Shown piece after piece: positions 46,877-53,136 of a stretch of 64,000 bases of DNA (the first letter of the stretch is position 1; every line of letters begins with the position of its first letter). A program made the position numbers and the translations under genes. Origin of the DNA: Candidatus Accumulibacter necessarius (lineage in GTDB: Bacteria; Pseudomonadota; Gammaproteobacteria; Burkholderiales; Rhodocyclaceae); NCBI GenBank assembly GCA_017302435.1, contig JAFLDL010000008.1, positions 53,081 to 117,080 of the forward strand. Direction: 5' to 3'. The notes beneath the pieces are model-generated. The model had not been told where the DNA came from. It saw only the letters and a list, made by a program, of their open reading frames with translations, and made no database searches.

Positions 46877-48274
46877 TCAGATGACCTTCGAGTACCGGGT
46901 ACGCTGCCGATCGGCCCGCAGGTAGCGGTCGAAGACCATCGAAATGGCGCGCACCAGCATGCGGCCACGCGGCAGAACGGTGATCCACTTGTCGTCGACG
47001 CGAACCAGCCCCGCATCGACCATCTCGCGCAACTCGTCAAGCTCCGTCGCGAAGTATTTCCTGAAGTCGATCAGGTGGGCAATCTCGATCGACTCGATCG
47101 ATAGTTCGAAGTGGCACATCAGCGACTGAATGATCGAGCGGCGCAGCAGATCATCAGCGTTCAGCTCGATGCCGCGGTAGACCGGCAGGGTGCCGCTGTC
47201 GAGCAAATCGTAGTACTCGTCGAGCGTTTTCACGTTCTGACTGTAGGTTGGTCCGACCTTGCTGATCGACGAGATGCCAAAGGCCAGCAGGTCACAGTCC
47301 GAATGGGTCGAATAGCCCTGGAAGTTGCGGTGCAGGCGCCCCTGCCGCTGGGCGATTGCCAGTTCATCGTCGGGTTTCGCAAAATGGTCCATGCCGATGT
47401 AGACGTAGCCGGCATCGGTCATCCGGCGGATTGCCAGGGCGAGGATCTGCAGCCGGGCGTCGGCCGAAGGCATGTCCGATTCCAGGATCCGGCGCTGCGG
47501 CTTGAACAGGCTCGGCAGGTGTGCATAGTTGTAGATCGAGACACGATCCGGGCTGACGTCGATCACGCGGTCGAGTGTCTGGCTGAACCCCATGACTGTC
47601 TGTTTCGGCAAGCCGTAAATGAGGTCGACGCTGATTGATTTGAAGCCGGTCGCGCGCGCTGCGTCGATCACGGCGCAGGTTTCTTCCTCGCTCTGGATGC
47701 GATTCACCGCCTGCTGTACGCGGGCATCGAAATCCTGCACGCCGACGCTCATGCGATTGAAGCCGAGCTCGCCAAGCAGTTCGACCGTCGCACGATCGAC
47801 CTTCCGGGGATCGACTTCGATCGAGTACTCGCCGCCGTCGATCAGTCTGAAGTGCCGGCGTGTCGCGGCCATCAGCTGGCGCATCTCGTCGTGCGAGAGA
47901 AAGGTTGGCGTGCCGCCTCCCCAGTGCAGCTGCGCCACCTCCTGATCGCCGCCCTCCAGATAGCTGCTCTGCAGCGCCAGTTCGCGTGCCAGATACTTCA
48001 GGTACTTGGCCGAACGACCATGGTCCTTGGTGATGATCTTGTTACACGCGCAGTAGTAGCAGATGGTGTTGCAGAAGGGAATGTGGAAGTACAATGACAG
48101 CTGGCGACTGATGGCGCCAATATTGCGTTTGCCGAGCCAGAGTCTGGCTGCGTCCGAACCAAAGGCTTCAACGAAGCGGTCCGCTGTCGGGTAAGACGTG
48201 TAGCGGGGTCCGTTGATGTCGAAACGGCGGATGATCTGTGGATCAAAAACAAGGTTGCCAGCGACAGAGTTCAT
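46877..48274 (-). CDS. hemN: Oxygen-independent coproporphyrinogen III dehydrogenase
   Basis: A 465-aa radical-SAM enzyme of anaerobic heme synthesis. The SAM cluster motif CNTICYYCACNK (CxxxCxxC-like: C-N-T-I-C-Y-Y-C) is near residue 70, the GGGTPTFL motif follows, and the C-terminal HemN domain is present. ATG 48274 is used. Its promoter region has an FNR box at 48330-48343 and a GATAAT -10 box in the right place, so it should be induced under low oxygen by the divergent fnr product. Confidence 0.95.
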   Translation of the reverse strand: MNSVAGNLVFDPQIIRRFDINGPRYTSYPTADRFVEAFGSDAARLWLGKRNIGAISRQLSLYFHIPFCNTICYYCACNKIITKDHGRSAKYLKYLARELALQSSYLEGGDQEVAQLHWGGGTPTFLSHDEMRQLMAATRRHFRLIDGGEYSIEVDPRKVDRATVELLGELGFNRMSVGVQDFDARVQQAVNRIQSEEETCAVIDAARATGFKSISVDLIYGLPKQTVMGFSQTLDRVIDVSPDRVSIYNYAHLPSLFKPQRRILESDMPSADARLQILALAIRRMTDAGYVYIGMDHFAKPDDELAIAQRQGRLHRNFQGYSTHSDCDLLAFGISSISKVGPTYSQNVKTLDEYYDLLDSGTLPVYRGIELNADDLLRRSIIQSLMCHFELSIESIEIAHLIDFRKYFATELDELREMVDAGLVRVDDKWITVLPRGRMLVRAISMVFDRYLRADRQRTRYSKVI

Positions 48275-48301
48275 GTTCCCACTACACTGTATATTGCCTG
48301 C

Positions 48302-48307
48302 ATTATC
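48302..48307 (-). promoter_or_regulatory. -10 box of the FNR-activated hemN promoter
   Basis: GATAAT on the minus strand; a start 7 bp further at about 48295 would put the FNR box centre at -41.5, the class II position. Confidence 0.6.
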
Positions 48308-48329
48308 GGACCACGCCGGAGACCTTGGG

Positions 48330-48343
48330 TTGACGTGGATCAA
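48330..48343. promoter_or_regulatory. FNR box between hemN and fnr
   Basis: TTGAC-GTGG-ATCAA matches TTGAT-N4-ATCAA at 9 of 10 bases. It sits 28 bp before the fnr ATG, where binding would tend to repress fnr, and at -41.5 from the inferred hemN start, where it would activate hemN. Confidence 0.82.
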
Positions 48344-48371: not shown

Positions 48372-49115
48372 ATGTCCAACGATGCTGCGACTGCCAGACT
48401 CGCGTTTGAAGTCGTGAAAACCGCCTGTTCAAACTGCAATCTGCGCGAACTGTGCCTCCCGATAGGCCTCGAAGCGGATGAGCTGAAGAAGCTGGACGAA
48501 CTGGTTTCGACGCGCCGACGTCTCAAGCGCGGCGATCACCTGTACCGTGCCGGGCAGACCTTCGAGTCGATCTATGCGATTCGCAGCGGCTTTTTCAAGA
48601 CCGACGTGCTGATCGAGGATGGCCGTGATCAGGTGACCGGTTTCCAGATGACCGGCGAGTTGCTCGGTCTCGACGGTATCAGCAGTGAACTGCACACCTG
48701 CAACGCCATCGCCCTCGAAGACAGCGAAGTGTGCGCCATTCCCTTCTCGCATCTCGAGGGACTGTCGCGGGAAATCCATACCCTGCAGCATCACTTTCAC
48801 AAGGTCATGAGCCGCGAGATCGTGCGCGACCACGGGGTAATGATGTTGCTCGGCACGATGCGCGCCGAGGAACGCCTGGCCGCGTTTCTCCTCAATCTCT
48901 CGCAGCGTTTCAAGGCGCGTGGCTACTCGCCGGCGGAATTCAATCTGCGGATGTCTCGCGATGAAATCGGTAGCTATCTCGGCCTCAAATTGGAGACGGT
49001 CAGCCGGGCTTTCTCGCGCTTCCAGGAAGAAGGCCTGCTCGCCGTGCATCAAAGAAAAGTCAGGATTCTCAACACGGCGGGCTTGAGAAAGCTGATGACC
49101 CACCAGCGTGGCTGA
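48372..49115 (+). CDS. fnr: FNR-type oxygen-sensing transcription factor
   Basis: The 247-aa protein has the FNR 4Fe-4S cysteines C19, C22 and C28 plus C110 (LHTCNAI), the CRP-like sensor barrel, the dimer helix and a winged helix with MSRDEIGSYLGLKLETVSRAFSRFQ. Recognition residues E208, S211 and R212 read TTGAT sites. It is expected to activate or repress genes on loss of oxygen; three FNR-like sites in this window are plausible targets. The gene is divergent from hemN and has an FNR box 28 bp upstream. Confidence 0.95.
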   Translation: MSNDAATARLAFEVVKTACSNCNLRELCLPIGLEADELKKLDELVSTRRRLKRGDHLYRAGQTFESIYAIRSGFFKTDVLIEDGRDQVTGFQMTGELLGLDGISSELHTCNAIALEDSEVCAIPFSHLEGLSREIHTLQHHFHKVMSREIVRDHGVMMLLGTMRAEERLAAFLLNLSQRFKARGYSPAEFNLRMSRDEIGSYLGLKLETVSRAFSRFQEEGLLAVHQRKVRILNTAGLRKLMTHQRG

Positions 49116-49145: not shown

Positions 49146-49541
49146 TCAGATCAGCCAGGCGAGAAACCCGAGAGGGTTGCGGAGCACGGCAACCGATACG
49201 ATGTAGGCAAACGAGGTCAGCGCAGCAACCAGGAAGGCCGCCCGCCGTGCTTTGCCACGTGCTCGCTTAAGGGCCATTGCCCCGCAGCCGATATAGACCA
49301 GCAGACCGACCAGCTTGGCTGTCAGCCAGTCTATGGTGAACGGATACTGGGCGCTGAGCACCGCCATGGCGATCGCGCTCCCGAGCAGGAGGGTGTCCAC
49401 CCCATGCGGCAAGACGCGGACGACTGGTCGCTGCAGCCAGGGTGAGTCGGTCAGCATCCACAGGCCACGCAGAAAAAAGCCGGCGCCGCTGAGCACGACG
49501 CAGCCGATGTGCAGGTCCTTGAGGAACGCGTAGCTCAGCAT
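49146..49541 (-). CDS. SirB2-family membrane protein
   Basis: A 131-aa protein with four predicted membrane segments and the SirB2 pattern LKDLHIGCVVLSGAGFFLRGLWML; the function of SirB2 is not known. ATG 49541 lies 7 bp inside the end of the previous gene, so the two are coupled. It is the last gene of the four-gene FNR-linked operon (hemerythrin, DUF2249, membrane protein, SirB2). The open frame is longer upstream but overlaps the membrane-protein gene in another frame. Confidence 0.8.
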   Translation of the reverse strand: MLSYAFLKDLHIGCVVLSGAGFFLRGLWMLTDSPWLQRPVVRVLPHGVDTLLLGSAIAMAVLSAQYPFTIDWLTAKLVGLLVYIGCGAMALKRARGKARRAAFLVAALTSFAYIVSVAVLRNPLGFLAWLI

Positions 49542-50854
49542 GTGCCTTGCGGAGGCGGTATGGCTGAAGTCGGGGCGACCATCTTCAGGCGCTGGTATCG
49601 GTAGAATGCGACGGCCGTCAGCAGGTTGTAGAGCAGCCAGACATTGGCCAGCACGAGTGCGATTCCGGCTGGATATGTGAACCACTCGGGCCAGATGACT
49701 GCTGCCAGCAGCAGTACAAGAGAAGCGACGTGCGCGTAGAGCTGCCGGTCGATCTGGCGCGCGGCGATGACCTTGTTCATGCTTGGGGCGGCCACCCGCC
49801 CATCGCCCAGGTTCTGGAGGTGCAGCCAGACCAGGAAAGGAACGATTTTGTAGAGCATGCCGACCATCACCGACATGAAGCCGCCGAGCAGAGCCAGGAC
49901 ACCGCACAACAGCGGCCATTCCTGGCGTTGAGCGAGCGCCGGCAGGCTGTCGGCAGCAAACCACAGGGCGCAGGCGGCCAGCAGGCACAGCATCGCCAGG
50001 CGCCAGTAGTATTGGCTGGCGTCGAACCGGGCGCGCTTGCTGCGGCGCTGGACCTGCAGGGTCAGCGCCGCAAACACCGCCACCGTCAGCACGACTGCAG
50101 CAGCCAAGACTGCCGATGGCCGTTGCCAGCCAGCGCCAACCACGATGCTCCACGAGGACAGTACAGCGAGTACCGACCAGGAAAAGCCGTGCGCGAACCA
50201 TGCTGGGAAGGGCGGGGTGATCTGGAACATCGGGACCACAACCAGGGCGACGGCAGCAAGCAGGATGCCGCCCCAGCCGACCAGGCCCCAGCCGAGGTGT
50301 ATCGCCGTCAGTTGCAGGACCGGCAGTCCAGACGATCCGTCGCGTGCGACTGCCAGCAGCATTCCCAGGCCAGCAGTCACGGCCAAACCGATCAATGCCA
50401 GCTTCAGGCCCTGGATGGTCGGATTGGTCGACCGCACACCGACCAGCGCATGACCAGCCGCGCCGAGAAAGAGCGCGATGCCGATGCCCAGCAGCAGCAC
50501 GGCCAGTCGTAAGACGAGCGGCTGCGAAGTCAGGAGGCCTGCTGTCAGCAGCAGGGCGCCAGGCACGATCGCTGCGTGCACCAGGGACGACACCAGCAGC
50601 GGCCGAGCCATGTTCGCCCCGGCCACGACCGGCAGGATCTGGATCATCGCCCCGAGCATCACCTGCAGCATGAAGCCAACGGTGATCAGATGCGTCAGCG
50701 CCAGCGCCGACGGCGTCCAGCGTGAGGCCAGGAGCTCCGGCCCACTCCAGAGCAGCAACGTGCCGGCGAGAATGGCAAACAGCGGGGCGGTGAGAAAAAA
50801 GCGGAACGGTGCAGCAATCGGGGGCGCCTGTTCGAAGGACAGCAGGGCCTGCAT
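49535..50854 (-). CDS. Multi-pass membrane protein, heme-copper-oxidase subunit I / NnrS-like
   Basis: A 439-aa protein with about twelve hydrophobic segments. Conserved-looking histidines occur within or next to segments (ALTHLITVGFMLQVMLGAMIQILPVVAG, GAAGHALVG, LTAIHLGWGLVG, LYKIVPFLVWLHL), as in heme-binding oxidase subunit I and NnrS-type proteins, though I cannot align the catalytic His set with certainty. NnrS-like proteins relate to NO stress. It starts 1 bp overlapping the stop of the DUF2249 gene (TAATG) and runs into SirB2. Exact function unknown; the operon position suggests low-oxygen or NO physiology. Confidence 0.6.
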   Translation of the reverse strand: MQALLSFEQAPPIAAPFRFFLTAPLFAILAGTLLLWSGPELLASRWTPSALALTHLITVGFMLQVMLGAMIQILPVVAGANMARPLLVSSLVHAAIVPGALLLTAGLLTSQPLVLRLAVLLLGIGIALFLGAAGHALVGVRSTNPTIQGLKLALIGLAVTAGLGMLLAVARDGSSGLPVLQLTAIHLGWGLVGWGGILLAAVALVVVPMFQITPPFPAWFAHGFSWSVLAVLSSWSIVVGAGWQRPSAVLAAAVVLTVAVFAALTLQVQRRSKRARFDASQYYWRLAMLCLLAACALWFAADSLPALAQRQEWPLLCGVLALLGGFMSVMVGMLYKIVPFLVWLHLQNLGDGRVAAPSMNKVIAARQIDRQLYAHVASLVLLLAAVIWPEWFTYPAGIALVLANVWLLYNLLTAVAFYRYQRLKMVAPTSAIPPPQGTC

Positions 50855-51090
50855 TACTGTGGCTGATGCTGGATCAGGACTTCGACCGTGCCGTCTGGCC
50901 GGCGGGTGGTTTGCCAGGAGAAACCGTTGAGCTTCAGTGCGCGGTAAAGCGGGTAGGGCTCATGGGGAAGCAGGACCAGGAGTGTTTCCGCCGGACCGAT
51001 CTGGTCGAGCGCTTCCAGGGTGCGTACCAGCGGCTCCGGTGGTTCGAGGCCACGGCCGTCGATCACGATGTCAGCATTGCTCGGGGTCAT
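50854..51090 (-). CDS. DUF2249 domain protein
   Basis: A 78-aa soluble protein of the DUF2249/TusA-like fold, with DIVIDGRGLEPPEPLVRTLEALDQIGPAETLLVLLPHEPYPLYRAL matching the family pattern of a glycine-proline turn and a strand-helix repeat. No cysteine is present, unlike TusA. DUF2249 is often found near hemerythrin and denitrification genes. It overlaps the hemerythrin stop by 4 bp (ATGA) and the downstream gene start by 1 bp. Confidence 0.82.
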   Translation of the reverse strand: MTPSNADIVIDGRGLEPPEPLVRTLEALDQIGPAETLLVLLPHEPYPLYRALKLNGFSWQTTRRPDGTVEVLIQHQPQ

Positions 51091-51548
51091 GTTGGCACTT
51101 CAACCTGGCCCGCAATCTGCGTCTGCAATGTCGGCAGCAGCACCTTGACATGGTCAGCCAGATGCTGGTCGCACATCGGATAAAGCACGTTCTCTTCCTT
51201 GACATTGTGCTGCTGCATCATGATCAGCAGTGTTTCGGCGTTGCCGGCATAATCGTCGACATCCTGCTCTGCCAGTGCCGAGGCAGCCGCCGTCAGCAGC
51301 AGGCGCATCTGGGCATGTTCGCCGCGCATCACCTGTGTCGGCCCCTGGTACATGCCGGTTGTCTCTTCAAAGAGAGGAAACAGAACGGATTCTTCGGCGG
51401 CGAAATGATGCAGCATGCCGTCCCGGTAGTGGGCAAACTCGCTCCTGGCCAGTTCCCAGTTGCGCTTGGCGACTGTGTGCTCGACCGCGACCAGCATCGC
51501 ATCGCAAGCGCGATGATCGTTGGCCATGAAATCCGTGATTGCGTGCAT
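51087..51548 (-). CDS. Hemerythrin-like (HHE) protein, first gene of FNR-linked operon
   Basis: A 153-aa HHE-domain protein. Putative di-iron ligands: H in MANDHRACD, HHFAAEESVLFP (H-H...E), GEHAQMRLL, and QQHNVKEENVLYPMCD. Proteins of this kind bind O2 or NO, or repair iron clusters (Ric/YtfE-like), but this one lacks the ScdA N-terminal domain. ATG 51548 is used. Its promoter lies in the shared region with a divergent uspA and carries a perfect FNR box at -41.5 from the inferred start. Confidence 0.85.
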   Translation of the reverse strand: MHAITDFMANDHRACDAMLVAVEHTVAKRNWELARSEFAHYRDGMLHHFAAEESVLFPLFEETTGMYQGPTQVMRGEHAQMRLLLTAAASALAEQDVDDYAGNAETLLIMMQQHNVKEENVLYPMCDQHLADHVKVLLPTLQTQIAGQVEVPT

Positions 51549-51603: not shown

Positions 51604-51617
51604 TTGATCGACATCAA
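51604..51617. promoter_or_regulatory. FNR box 1 (perfect), hemerythrin-side
   Basis: TTGAT-CGAC-ATCAA matches the FNR consensus at all 10 fixed bases. Centre 51610.5, about 41.5 bp from the inferred minus-strand start. Confidence 0.9.
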
Positions 51618-51626
51618 ACAAGGCAT

Positions 51627-51640
51627 TTGATTTCGATCAA
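51627..51640. promoter_or_regulatory. FNR box 2 (perfect), uspA-side
   Basis: TTGAT-TTCG-ATCAA, also 10 of 10. Centre 51633.5; a plus-strand start at about 51675 is 41.5 bp away, with TATAGT at 51663-51668 as -10. Confidence 0.9.
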
Positions 51641-51696: not shown

Positions 51697-52140
51697 ATGT
51701 TCAAGAACATCCTTGTCCCTACCGATGGCTCCGAGCTTTCAAAGGAGACTGCACGCCGGGCAGTATCGTTCGCCAGGGAGGCGGGGGCCCGCATTACGGC
51801 GTTCTTTGCGAAACCCGAGTACCCGGTGAGTTACTATGGTGAAGGCGCCTTGATTGACCCAACGACGCCGGAGAAGTTTGCCGAACTTGCCGAGCAGCAG
51901 GCACAGCAGACTCTGGATTTCGTTGTCCAGTTGTGCGACGCAGCGGGTGTTCAGGTCGACAAGCTGTCGCTGACCAGCGACATTCCCTATCAGGCAATCA
52001 TCGACGCGGCAACTCAGGCGGGCTGCGACCTGATTTTCATGGCCTCGCATGGTCGTCGGGGCTTCACTGCCTTGTTGCTCGGCAGCGAAACCAACAAGGT
52101 GCTCACGCACTCGAAGATTCCCGTCCTGGTTTATCGCTGA
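51697..52140 (+). CDS. Universal stress protein (UspA family), FNR-linked
   Basis: A 147-aa single Usp domain: FKNILVPTDGSELSKETARRAV at the start and the ATP-binding motif ASHGRRGFTALLLGSETNKVL at the end. It is divergent from the hemerythrin operon and the two perfect FNR boxes between them suggest joint low-oxygen induction, as known for Usp proteins in Pseudomonas aeruginosa anaerobic survival. ATG 51697 follows GGAGG. Confidence 0.9.
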   Translation: MFKNILVPTDGSELSKETARRAVSFAREAGARITAFFAKPEYPVSYYGEGALIDPTTPEKFAELAEQQAQQTLDFVVQLCDAAGVQVDKLSLTSDIPYQAIIDAATQAGCDLIFMASHGRRGFTALLLGSETNKVLTHSKIPVLVYR

Positions 52141-52452
52141 TTCCCTCGCCGCGGGCCACGTGCCCGCCCAGATGACAGCCCTGTCCGGCCGCTGGTGGCG
52201 CCAGTCGTACGTCTGCGACCAGCGGCCAGCGGGCAAGCAGGATCCTGCGCGTTGCATAGCCGCCGGTGTCGAGTGCGGCGCCATTCCGTGCTCGCCGTTC
52301 TGCGATCCCATCCTTCCGCCGAAATGCCGTTGATCGCTGCTGATCGGCGCGCTGGGCGCATCAGCGCCGGCGCGGCTGCCGGAATGTGGCAAAATGCCTT
52401 GGCCCATCGAGATTCTGATGGCCAAATGCACCTGGCTGATGGAGAAAACGGA

Positions 52453-53136
52453 ATGCTGATTCACTGTGTCGAGAAAAGCGCGAGGTGGCTCGGCTGGGCA
52501 CCGAGCCGGTACACCGTCGTGTTATCTCTTTGTGCCCTCTGCTCGGGCGCGCAGGCAGTGGATGTCGGGTTGGCGGGTGTCTTTCCGGGAAAAGCATTGC
52601 TGACGATTGACGGTGGGGTGCCGCGAACTGTCGCGGTTGGCAGCAGGACGGCTGAAGGCGTCACAGTGCTTGCTGTCGATAGTCAGAGCGCCACCATCGA
52701 GGCCAATGGCAGGAAGCAGGTTTTGCGGGTTGGGCAGAACGTTGCCGCGCAATCTTCAGGTGACGGCGGCGGCAGGGCGGTATTGACCGCTGACGGCAGT
52801 GGCCATTTCGTGACCACCGGAAACATCAACGGGACGACTGTCCGCTTTCTCGTGGACACGGGCGCGACGATGGTCTCGCTTGGTGCCAGCGAGGCGCGGC
52901 GAATCGGCCTGGATACCAGCAAGGGTCCGACAGCGGTGGTCAATACAGCCAATGGTCAGGCACTGGTGGCGCGCGTCAAACTCGATTCGGTACGGGTGGG
53001 CGAAATCGTCATGAACAACGTGGATGCCTTGGTCCATCAACAGGAGATGCCCTTTGTCTTGCTGGGCATGAGTTTCTTGAACCGTATGGAAATGCAGCGT
53101 GACGGTCAGACGATGACCCTCAGGAAGCGCTACTAG
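52453..53136 (+). CDS. Retroviral-like aspartic protease of the TIGR02281 (clan AA) type
   Basis: A 227-aa protein with a short N-terminal hydrophobic stretch (probable membrane anchor or signal near residues 15-35), a beta-rich middle and a C-terminal aspartyl protease domain. The active-site triad reads FLVDTGATMVSLG (DTGA). Such single-domain proteases work as dimers. ATG 52453 has GGAG 8 bp upstream. Its target is unknown. The frame is open upstream, but that part lacks coding character. Confidence 0.85.
   Translation: MLIHCVEKSARWLGWAPSRYTVVLSLCALCSGAQAVDVGLAGVFPGKALLTIDGGVPRTVAVGSRTAEGVTVLAVDSQSATIEANGRKQVLRVGQNVAAQSSGDGGGRAVLTADGSGHFVTTGNINGTTVRFLVDTGATMVSLGASEARRIGLDTSKGPTAVVNTANGQALVARVKLDSVRVGEIVMNNVDALVHQQEMPFVLLGMSFLNRMEMQRDGQTMTLRKRY

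Follow-up and report, generated by a model that had tools for sequence, protein, structure and literature searches.

Denitrifiers make nitric oxide (NO), a toxic gas and N2O precursor. Heme-copper oxidase homology (HCOH) families were reportedly named by Pei et al. in 2014; they are said to be defined by 12 transmembrane (TM) segments, two conserved histidines and a single heme, and roles in denitrification were reportedly suggested for them. The family DUF2249 is taken here to be the same as COG4309. In the available parts of the literature, DUF2249 proteins are termed of unknown function (PMC11218638), are tied as COG4309 to norB and nor operons (PMC1274295) and are tied to the hemerythrin and heme-copper oxidase superfamilies (PMC11218638, citing Pei 2014); NnrS is described as a membrane protein of NO and nitrite regulons (PMC1274295), and YtfE as binding NO in a reaction that yields N2O (PMC9268430). 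The present report concerns an operon in a stretch of 64,000 nucleotides from Candidatus Accumulibacter necessarius (assembly GCA_017302435.1, contig JAFLDL010000008.1, positions 53,081 to 117,080 of the forward strand; the whole stretch is called the window), which encodes a hemerythrin-like di-iron protein (HHE), a DUF2249 protein, a membrane protein (named HCOH here) and SirB2. Judged from the sequences, the conserved unit is three genes, HHE-DUF2249-HCOH, and not four. The trio is, on balance, probably an accessory module acting at the NO stage of denitrification at low oxygen, controlled by FNR/DNR-type regulators. As such it would be a further component of NO handling, also in Accumulibacter and other wastewater organisms, and would give a testable role to DUF2249 and to catalytically bare heme-copper oxidase homologues.

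The window HCOH has the 12 TM segments and the two conserved histidines by which HCOH proteins are reportedly recognised, and it has in common with them a denitrification context. NnrS is, to our knowledge, not known as a partner of DUF2249 or HHE. The DUF2249 proteins of denitrifiers (DrpA; COG4309-norB operons) belong to the same Pfam family and occur in a denitrification context, but are not described as forming one operon with HHE and HCOH in the available parts of these sources (PMC6282519, PMC11218638, PMC1274295). No report pairing NnrS with DUF2249, or SirB2 with hemerythrin or with denitrification, was found in the literature searched; the available parts of the papers mentioning DUF2249 hold no description of an HHE-DUF2249-HCOH operon, and that of PMC4919030 holds nothing on gene context. 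The original prediction had called the gene set a candidate undescribed system. This stands for the whole unit in the literature searched and falls for its parts, as the links of DUF2249 to norB and to the hemerythrin and heme-copper oxidase superfamilies are published (PMC1274295, PMC11218638, available parts).

Gene organisation and conservation

The four genes are arranged as follows (aa, amino acids):

51087..51548, minus strand: HHE, hemerythrin-like di-iron protein, 153 aa (Pfam PF01814, 3.4e-20)
50854..51090, minus strand: DUF2249 protein of the TusA-like family, 78 aa (PF10006, 5.9e-17; PF01206, 1.8e-08)
49535..50854, minus strand: HCOH, 12-segment membrane protein, 439 aa, distant homologue of NnrS and of heme-copper oxidase subunit I
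49146..49541, minus strand: SirB2, 4-segment membrane protein, 131 aa (PF04247, 1.3e-41), lineage-specific fourth gene

Successive genes overlap at ATGA (51087-51090, HHE/DUF2249), at TAATG (at 50854, DUF2249/HCOH) and by 7 bp (49535-49541, HCOH/SirB2). The four had been proposed as one translation unit, and the open reading frames, overlaps and families behind this proposal were all confirmed.

Conservation was assessed in named loci, the best 80 of at least 558 from GTDB genomes and therefore biased towards near relatives, and in a class sample, an even class-wide draw of 273 genomes besides the window's own. One named locus (L066) was dropped for want of a complete HCOH frame, which left 79 with full HCOH. 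HHE and DUF2249 were found just upstream of HCOH (same strand, within 2.5 kb) in 77 of these 79; domain-to-gene gaps exceeded 300 bp in L103, L106, L127 and L138, and the two exceptions were L113, at a contig end, and L135, in which no DUF2249 was found. The nearest named loci of the window operon are from Candidatus Accumulibacter. Within this genus HHE, DUF2249, HCOH and SirB2 stand together in the window and in 24/24 other loci examined (in L005 the contig ends within SirB2), and fnr lies beside the operon in 23 of the 25 own-genus loci, window included. A total of 27 other genomes of the genus matched, three of them as fragments without a locus, which are hence not among the 24. HCOH is carried by 28/273 class-sample genomes. 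Both HHE and DUF2249 were present in 25 of 29 class-sample loci, and L053 counts as a 26th, its locus being split by a contig edge with both partners on the other contig end.

Across the phylum, the HCOH profile matched at E ≤ 1e-10 in 67/398 genomes (own included), some of them remote. Twenty-nine of the phylum loci were examined: seven have separate HHE and DUF2249 genes, one has DUF2249 only, 17 have HHE but lack a separate DUF2249 gene, and four have neither within short flanks. In the 17 loci HHE is divergent from HCOH. When 16 of these distant-group HHE proteins were scanned at E ≤ 0.01, a Hemerythrin domain was found in 16/16 and a DUF2249 domain in 13/16, the latter N-terminal; 16 of the 17 were aligned (L215 was left out), and the frames of L210 and L221 are short on the N-terminal side. 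This natural DUF2249-HHE fusion argues that the two proteins may work as one body beside HCOH.

SirB2 follows HCOH within 50 bp in 40/79 named loci and within 3 kb in 49/79, an NnrS and/or Crp-family gene intervening in the nine in which it is farther off (50 bp-3 kb); it is present in 2/29 class-sample loci. On these counts of adjoining SirB2 genes the four-gene unit was rejected as a conserved system. The original prediction would have been undermined had its genes been found mainly apart in other genomes: HHE, DUF2249 and HCOH keep together (77/79 named, 25/29 class-sample loci), and only the place of SirB2 in the core had to be given up, this gene being a common addition among the closest relatives.

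Denitrification context and regulation

In four class-sample genomes (G074, G121, G207, G319) the whole trio lies downstream of nirN, with a Crp/FNR-family gene between them on the opposite strand, and in G162 HCOH alone stands directly after nirN; in these five genomes HCOH ends the heme d1 nir cluster. The genes norC-norB lie within about 2 kb or less of HCOH in G086, G127, G128, G197, G232 and G265. Placement in a nir cluster or by norC-norB was thus recorded for 11/28 class-sample carriers. Among the named loci, nirS is the divergent neighbour in L117, L127, L130 and L136 and follows in L138; in L121 the divergent neighbour is norCB. NnrS adjoins or is near HCOH in 8/80. Most of the remaining named loci belong to the window's wider group, in which the operon is sited elsewhere. 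One cluster of called genes put true nirF/nirN together with YVTN-type propellers from Azonexus-type loci; these were not counted as nir linkage. Composition-based gene calling in the loci erred in places, as in L149, where the wrong strand was called and tblastn shows a Crp-family gene.

Reductase markers were scored in the class sample as cd1-type genes (strong hits, best E < 1e-100, 53 genomes; weak propeller matches, best about 1e-16, were left out), NirK (above the curated cut-off, 14 genomes) and NorB (E ≤ 1e-30, qNor-like frames included, 67 genomes). HCOH carriers have cd1-type genes in 17/28 cases vs 36/245 non-carriers (p = 3.2e-7, Fisher) and NorB in 19/28 vs 48/245 (p = 3.3e-7, Fisher); at least one of the three markers is found in 24/28 carriers vs 70/245 non-carriers (p = 5e-9, Fisher). 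Gene placement and co-occurrence support the low-oxygen/NO programme suggested in the original prediction, and the module is quite likely to work in NO handling during denitrification.

Two boxes of the FNR type lie between HHE and a divergent gene:

51604..51617, no strand assigned: FNR box TTGATCGACATCAA, about 56 bp from the HHE start and about 80 bp from the uspA start
51627..51640, no strand assigned: FNR box TTGATTTCGATCAA, about 79 bp from the HHE start and about 57 bp from the uspA start
51697..52140, plus strand: uspA, divergent, sharing the FNR-box region with HHE (Pfam PF00582, 4.3e-30)

Both boxes are perfect copies of TTGAT-N4-ATCAA and are placed symmetrically between the two divergent starts. 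A scan of the window for FNR boxes with at most one mismatch gave six matches, against a shuffle mean of 0.83 (0/100 shuffles reached six). In 58/77 named loci the 300 bp ahead of the HHE domain start contain a TTGAY-N4-RTCAA box, vs 422/15,400 random windows of the same loci (2.7%); in 55/77 it lies 70-90 bp upstream, and in 19/77 no such box was found within the 300 bp. These counts were taken on 77 of the 79 loci, L113 (no HHE) and L080 (too near the contig start) having been left out. By its upstream box the HHE operon is a candidate member of the FNR/DNR regulon, and the FNR control that had been predicted is supported both by the two perfect boxes of the window and by the named loci. FNR/DNR-type regulators would accordingly be expected to switch the operon on under low oxygen. 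In an Accumulibacter, hemN, uspA and a hemerythrin have FNR motifs and are induced anaerobically, at the transcript level, together with nar, nos, nirS-1 and cco (PMC6446978, available part); because HHE and uspA share a promoter region, the induced hemerythrin would be the window HHE.

Another explanation is that the trio is a sensor or regulatory module: O2, NO or nitrate would be detected by HHE and the membrane heme, and DUF2249 would pass the signal to FNR/DNR-type regulators, along the lines proposed for DrpA of Thermus. A single heme without CuB next to a small di-iron protein would suit this, many loci have an adjoining or nearby Crp/FNR-family gene, and DrpA (a DUF2249 protein) and DrpB of Thermus affect the dnr and nar promoters and were proposed as nitrate sensors (PMC6282519, available part). 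However, no Pfam DNA-binding, kinase or cyclase domain was found in the four operon proteins, and the regulator gene beside the trio may just be the transcriptional activator of the trio, since an FNR/DNR-type box precedes HHE. A sensing role is considered unlikely.

Several observations weigh against the assignment of the module to NO handling in denitrification. No nir or nor gene was found next to HCOH in 17/28 class-sample carriers and 74/80 named loci, within the stretches examined, and the operon of the window's group lies beside fnr and hemN, a setting that plain microoxic metabolism would fit too. The gene nirK is not associated with HCOH (1/28 carriers vs 13/245 others), four of the 28 carriers (G092, G147, G180, G271) have none of the three reductase markers, and HCOH is absent from 70/94 marker-positive class-sample genomes and thus non-essential for denitrification. 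Phylogeny was corrected for only by the even draw of the class sample. The available part of PMC6446978 does not specify which of several hemerythrin genes rises.

The fnr and hemN neighbours of the window's group would also fit generic microoxic O2 buffering, in which HHE delivers or stores O2 for the cbb3 oxidase and the membrane protein is its electron or docking partner, with no part in NO metabolism; so would the ODP-type gene upstream in 20/80 named loci (one representative Pfam-tested). Yet the trio is placed in nir clusters or by norCB in several lineages and co-occurs with NO-producing or NO-consuming enzymes. Moreover, the HxxxE pattern of HHE is of the YtfE type, and O2-carrying hemerythrins are not known to share it. 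O2 buffering is therefore held to be very improbable.

Protein features and the proposed mechanism

HHE resembles RIC/YtfE/DnrN proteins in its hemerythrin-like domain and in a ligand-type set of the form H...HxxxE...H...HxxxE, and differs in falling below all family cut-offs, in lacking a ScdA_N match and in having a separate or fused DUF2249 instead. The residues H12, H48, E52, H78, H114 and E118, which we take to be the di-iron ligands, are each present in 78 or all 79 of the 79 sequences aligned, a gap accounting for the single absence; HHE thus has the six ligand-type His/Glu residues that characterise RICs. A cysteine, C15 (window 51504-51506), sits one helical turn after the first ligand-type histidine and is present in 78/78 copies having the position and in 16/16 aligned fused proteins. 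HHE residues 44-85 match YtfE 124-167 (phmmer, PDB YtfE, E = 0.004). The Pfam Hemerythrin domain covers residues 4-126 of the 153, and no Pfam match to ScdA_N was obtained in HHE. HHE was rejected as a RIC equivalog, with scores of 29.2 bits vs 204.7 (TIGR03652), 32.8 vs 254 and 23.6 vs 300.

The weak similarity of HHE to YtfE/RIC could also indicate an assembly or repair factor, with HHE as a RIC-like iron donor, for iron or heme insertion or for the repair of NO-damaged cd1 nitrite reductase, NOR or cbb3 oxidase. The window operon is near hemN and near genes presumed here to be of the cbb3-maturation type, and elsewhere the trio comes after nirN, at the end of the heme d1 cluster. HHE, however, lacks the ScdA_N domain of RICs and stays far below the family cut-offs, and the trio is also found near norCB, whose product contains no heme d1. 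This explanation is judged distinctly improbable.

The DUF2249 protein scores 61.7 bits against a Pfam cut-off of 29.5 (PF10006). The window copy has no cysteine, and any one column is cysteine in at most 8/78 sequences. TusA sulfurtransferase needs a catalytic cysteine, and TusA-type sulfur transfer by DUF2249 was rejected on these grounds.

HCOH gave no Pfam match at E ≤ 0.1, the sole match in a separate scan being at chance level (E = 0.9). Twelve hydrophobic segments are seen in its family-averaged profile. Its predicted relation to oxidase subunit I or NnrS is upheld by profile comparison: hhalign gives 80% over 318 columns against NnrS (profile of six sequences) and 72% over 320 columns against the partner of a second DUF2249 protein of the window genome. 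The likeness to NnrS thus extends over most of the length, and further comprises a TM2-type histidine (H55 aligned with an NnrS TM2 His, by sequence alignment alone), control by the FNR/DNR family and a denitrification context. On the other hand, the window HCOH has no match to the NnrS model (PF05940) at E ≤ 0.1, only one of 25 members matches (E = 0.0017), and the window genome has its own NnrS. Membership of HCOH in NnrS was rejected, the family-model cut-off not being reached.

A PDB sequence search with HCOH returned CcoN of the cbb3 oxidase alone (3mk7, E = 0.0028). The likeness is local and centres on a histidine of the low-spin heme b; the difference is that HCOH has no invariant counterparts of the CuB and high-spin heme ligands and is not a catalytic oxidase subunit. 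Only H55 and H186 are invariant among the histidines of 25 divergent HCOH homologues (H345 in 22/25, H93 in 20/25). With 7 His in 439 residues the window protein is not the His-rich one of the original prediction; the candidate heme-type histidines that it expected were found, at sequence level, in H55 and H186. H55 opens segment 2 and H186 immediately precedes segment 6, which would put both on the same membrane face. In the alignments, H55 falls on the second His in the HVH motif of CcoN and H186 on the CcoN TM2 His, the latter in two low-ranked alignments of which neither is significant alone; both CcoN residues are presumably low-spin heme b ligands. If this is right, HCOH unit 1 would correspond to CcoN unit 3 and HCOH unit 2 to CcoN unit 1, a cyclic shift that is permissible because the fold is three-fold pseudosymmetric; the three-unit repeat of HCOH is visible only via weak alignments to CcoN units. 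The strength of these alignments counts against the proposed heme site: hhalign of the H55 region to CcoN is weak (E 5e-4 to 5e-3, probabilities 7-30%), that of H186 gives E 0.03-0.08, the corresponding stretch in 3mk7 scores 3.6 bits (i-Evalue 220), and the best CcoN alignment of the H186 unit (unit 2) is to the TM10 motif.

Catalytic subunits of heme-copper oxidases and NO reductases have six conserved histidines for two hemes and CuB/FeB. With H55 and H186 as its only invariant histidines, HCOH was rejected as such a subunit. Its sequence is consistent with one bis-His heme b and, probably, no CuB or other catalytic copper site; without CuB it would not itself be an NO reductase or oxidase.

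The module proposed for the NO stage of denitrification would work as follows. HCOH would hold one heme b near one membrane face, periplasmic if the N-terminus is inside, at the counterpart of the CcoN low-spin heme b site, in cyclically shifted register. DUF2249 would dock the soluble HHE onto HCOH, HHE with its YtfE-type six-ligand set would bind and perhaps reduce NO, and the membrane heme of HCOH would supply or remove electrons, or sense NO. In the wider group around the window, SirB2 may serve as an extra membrane subunit. That heme and NO are bound and that a complex forms is what we infer from the features described above. The detail of an electron wire between HHE and HCOH is possible, though doubtful. 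It is quite unlikely that the trio is a new NO-removing system in which membrane electrons pass via the HCOH heme b to the DUF2249-docked di-iron HHE and NO is converted to N2O; if true, the trio would represent a membrane-coupled NO reductase of the di-iron type, with no relation to cNOR, qNOR, flavodiiron proteins or Hmp.

SirB2 scores 141.9 bits against the Pfam cut-off of 30.9 (PF04247), and homology to HCOH is unsupported (hhalign 0.2%). Two histidines, H11 and H46, are invariant (50/50) and stand where segments 1 and 2 begin, probably on opposite membrane faces, for which reason no heme is claimed for SirB2. A weak resemblance to CydA (cytochrome bd subunit I) was seen (Pfam 1.9e-4, below cut-off; 6rko, E = 0.028).

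Neighbouring genes and further loci

Other features of the window next to the operon are:

48372..49115, plus strand: fnr, convergent at the operon 3' end (NCBIfam NF008365 (Fnr), 245.6 bits vs a cut-off of 228)
46877..48343, minus strand: hemN, start uncertain (Pfam Radical_SAM and HemN_C)
48330..48343: FNR-like box TTGACGTGGATCAA between hemN and fnr, from the sequence scan

The box TTGACGTGGATCAA suggests autoregulation. Further minus-strand neighbours are a DsbD_2-type gene and a copper P-type ATPase, the ATPase being read from the sequence by eye. In loci of the Azonexus/Dechloromonas type the neighbours include an ODP-type gene (20/80 named loci), a PHA-synthase-like gene (29/80) and uspA (25/80); one representative each of the ODP-type and PHA-synthase-like clusters was checked. 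The ODP-family gene (metallo-beta-lactamase fold) lies upstream of the trio, e.g. at L105:6477-7217.

The window genome (G000, 4.56 Mb) carries cd1-type genes and a separate bona fide NnrS. Neither a cNorB match at E ≤ 1e-30 nor a qNor-sized COX1-family frame was found in it. A 459-aa divergent COX1-family protein (G000:C45:15032-16225; L147:1411-2790) scores 32.7 bits, below the Pfam cut-off, has no PDB sequence relative at E ≤ 0.01 and adjoins a thioredoxin-like frame; as the genome has no cNorB match at that threshold, it might represent an atypical oxidase or NO reductase. Elsewhere in the genome, the second DUF2249 gene (G000:C33; L142:6541-8050, minus strand) is followed by a different HCOH/NnrS-like membrane protein, which has no Pfam match at E ≤ 0.01, and DUF2249 may be a general partner of HCOH/NnrS-like membrane proteins. 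Beyond uspA, an open reading frame at window positions 52195-53136 resembles, by eye, a retroviral-type aspartic protease.

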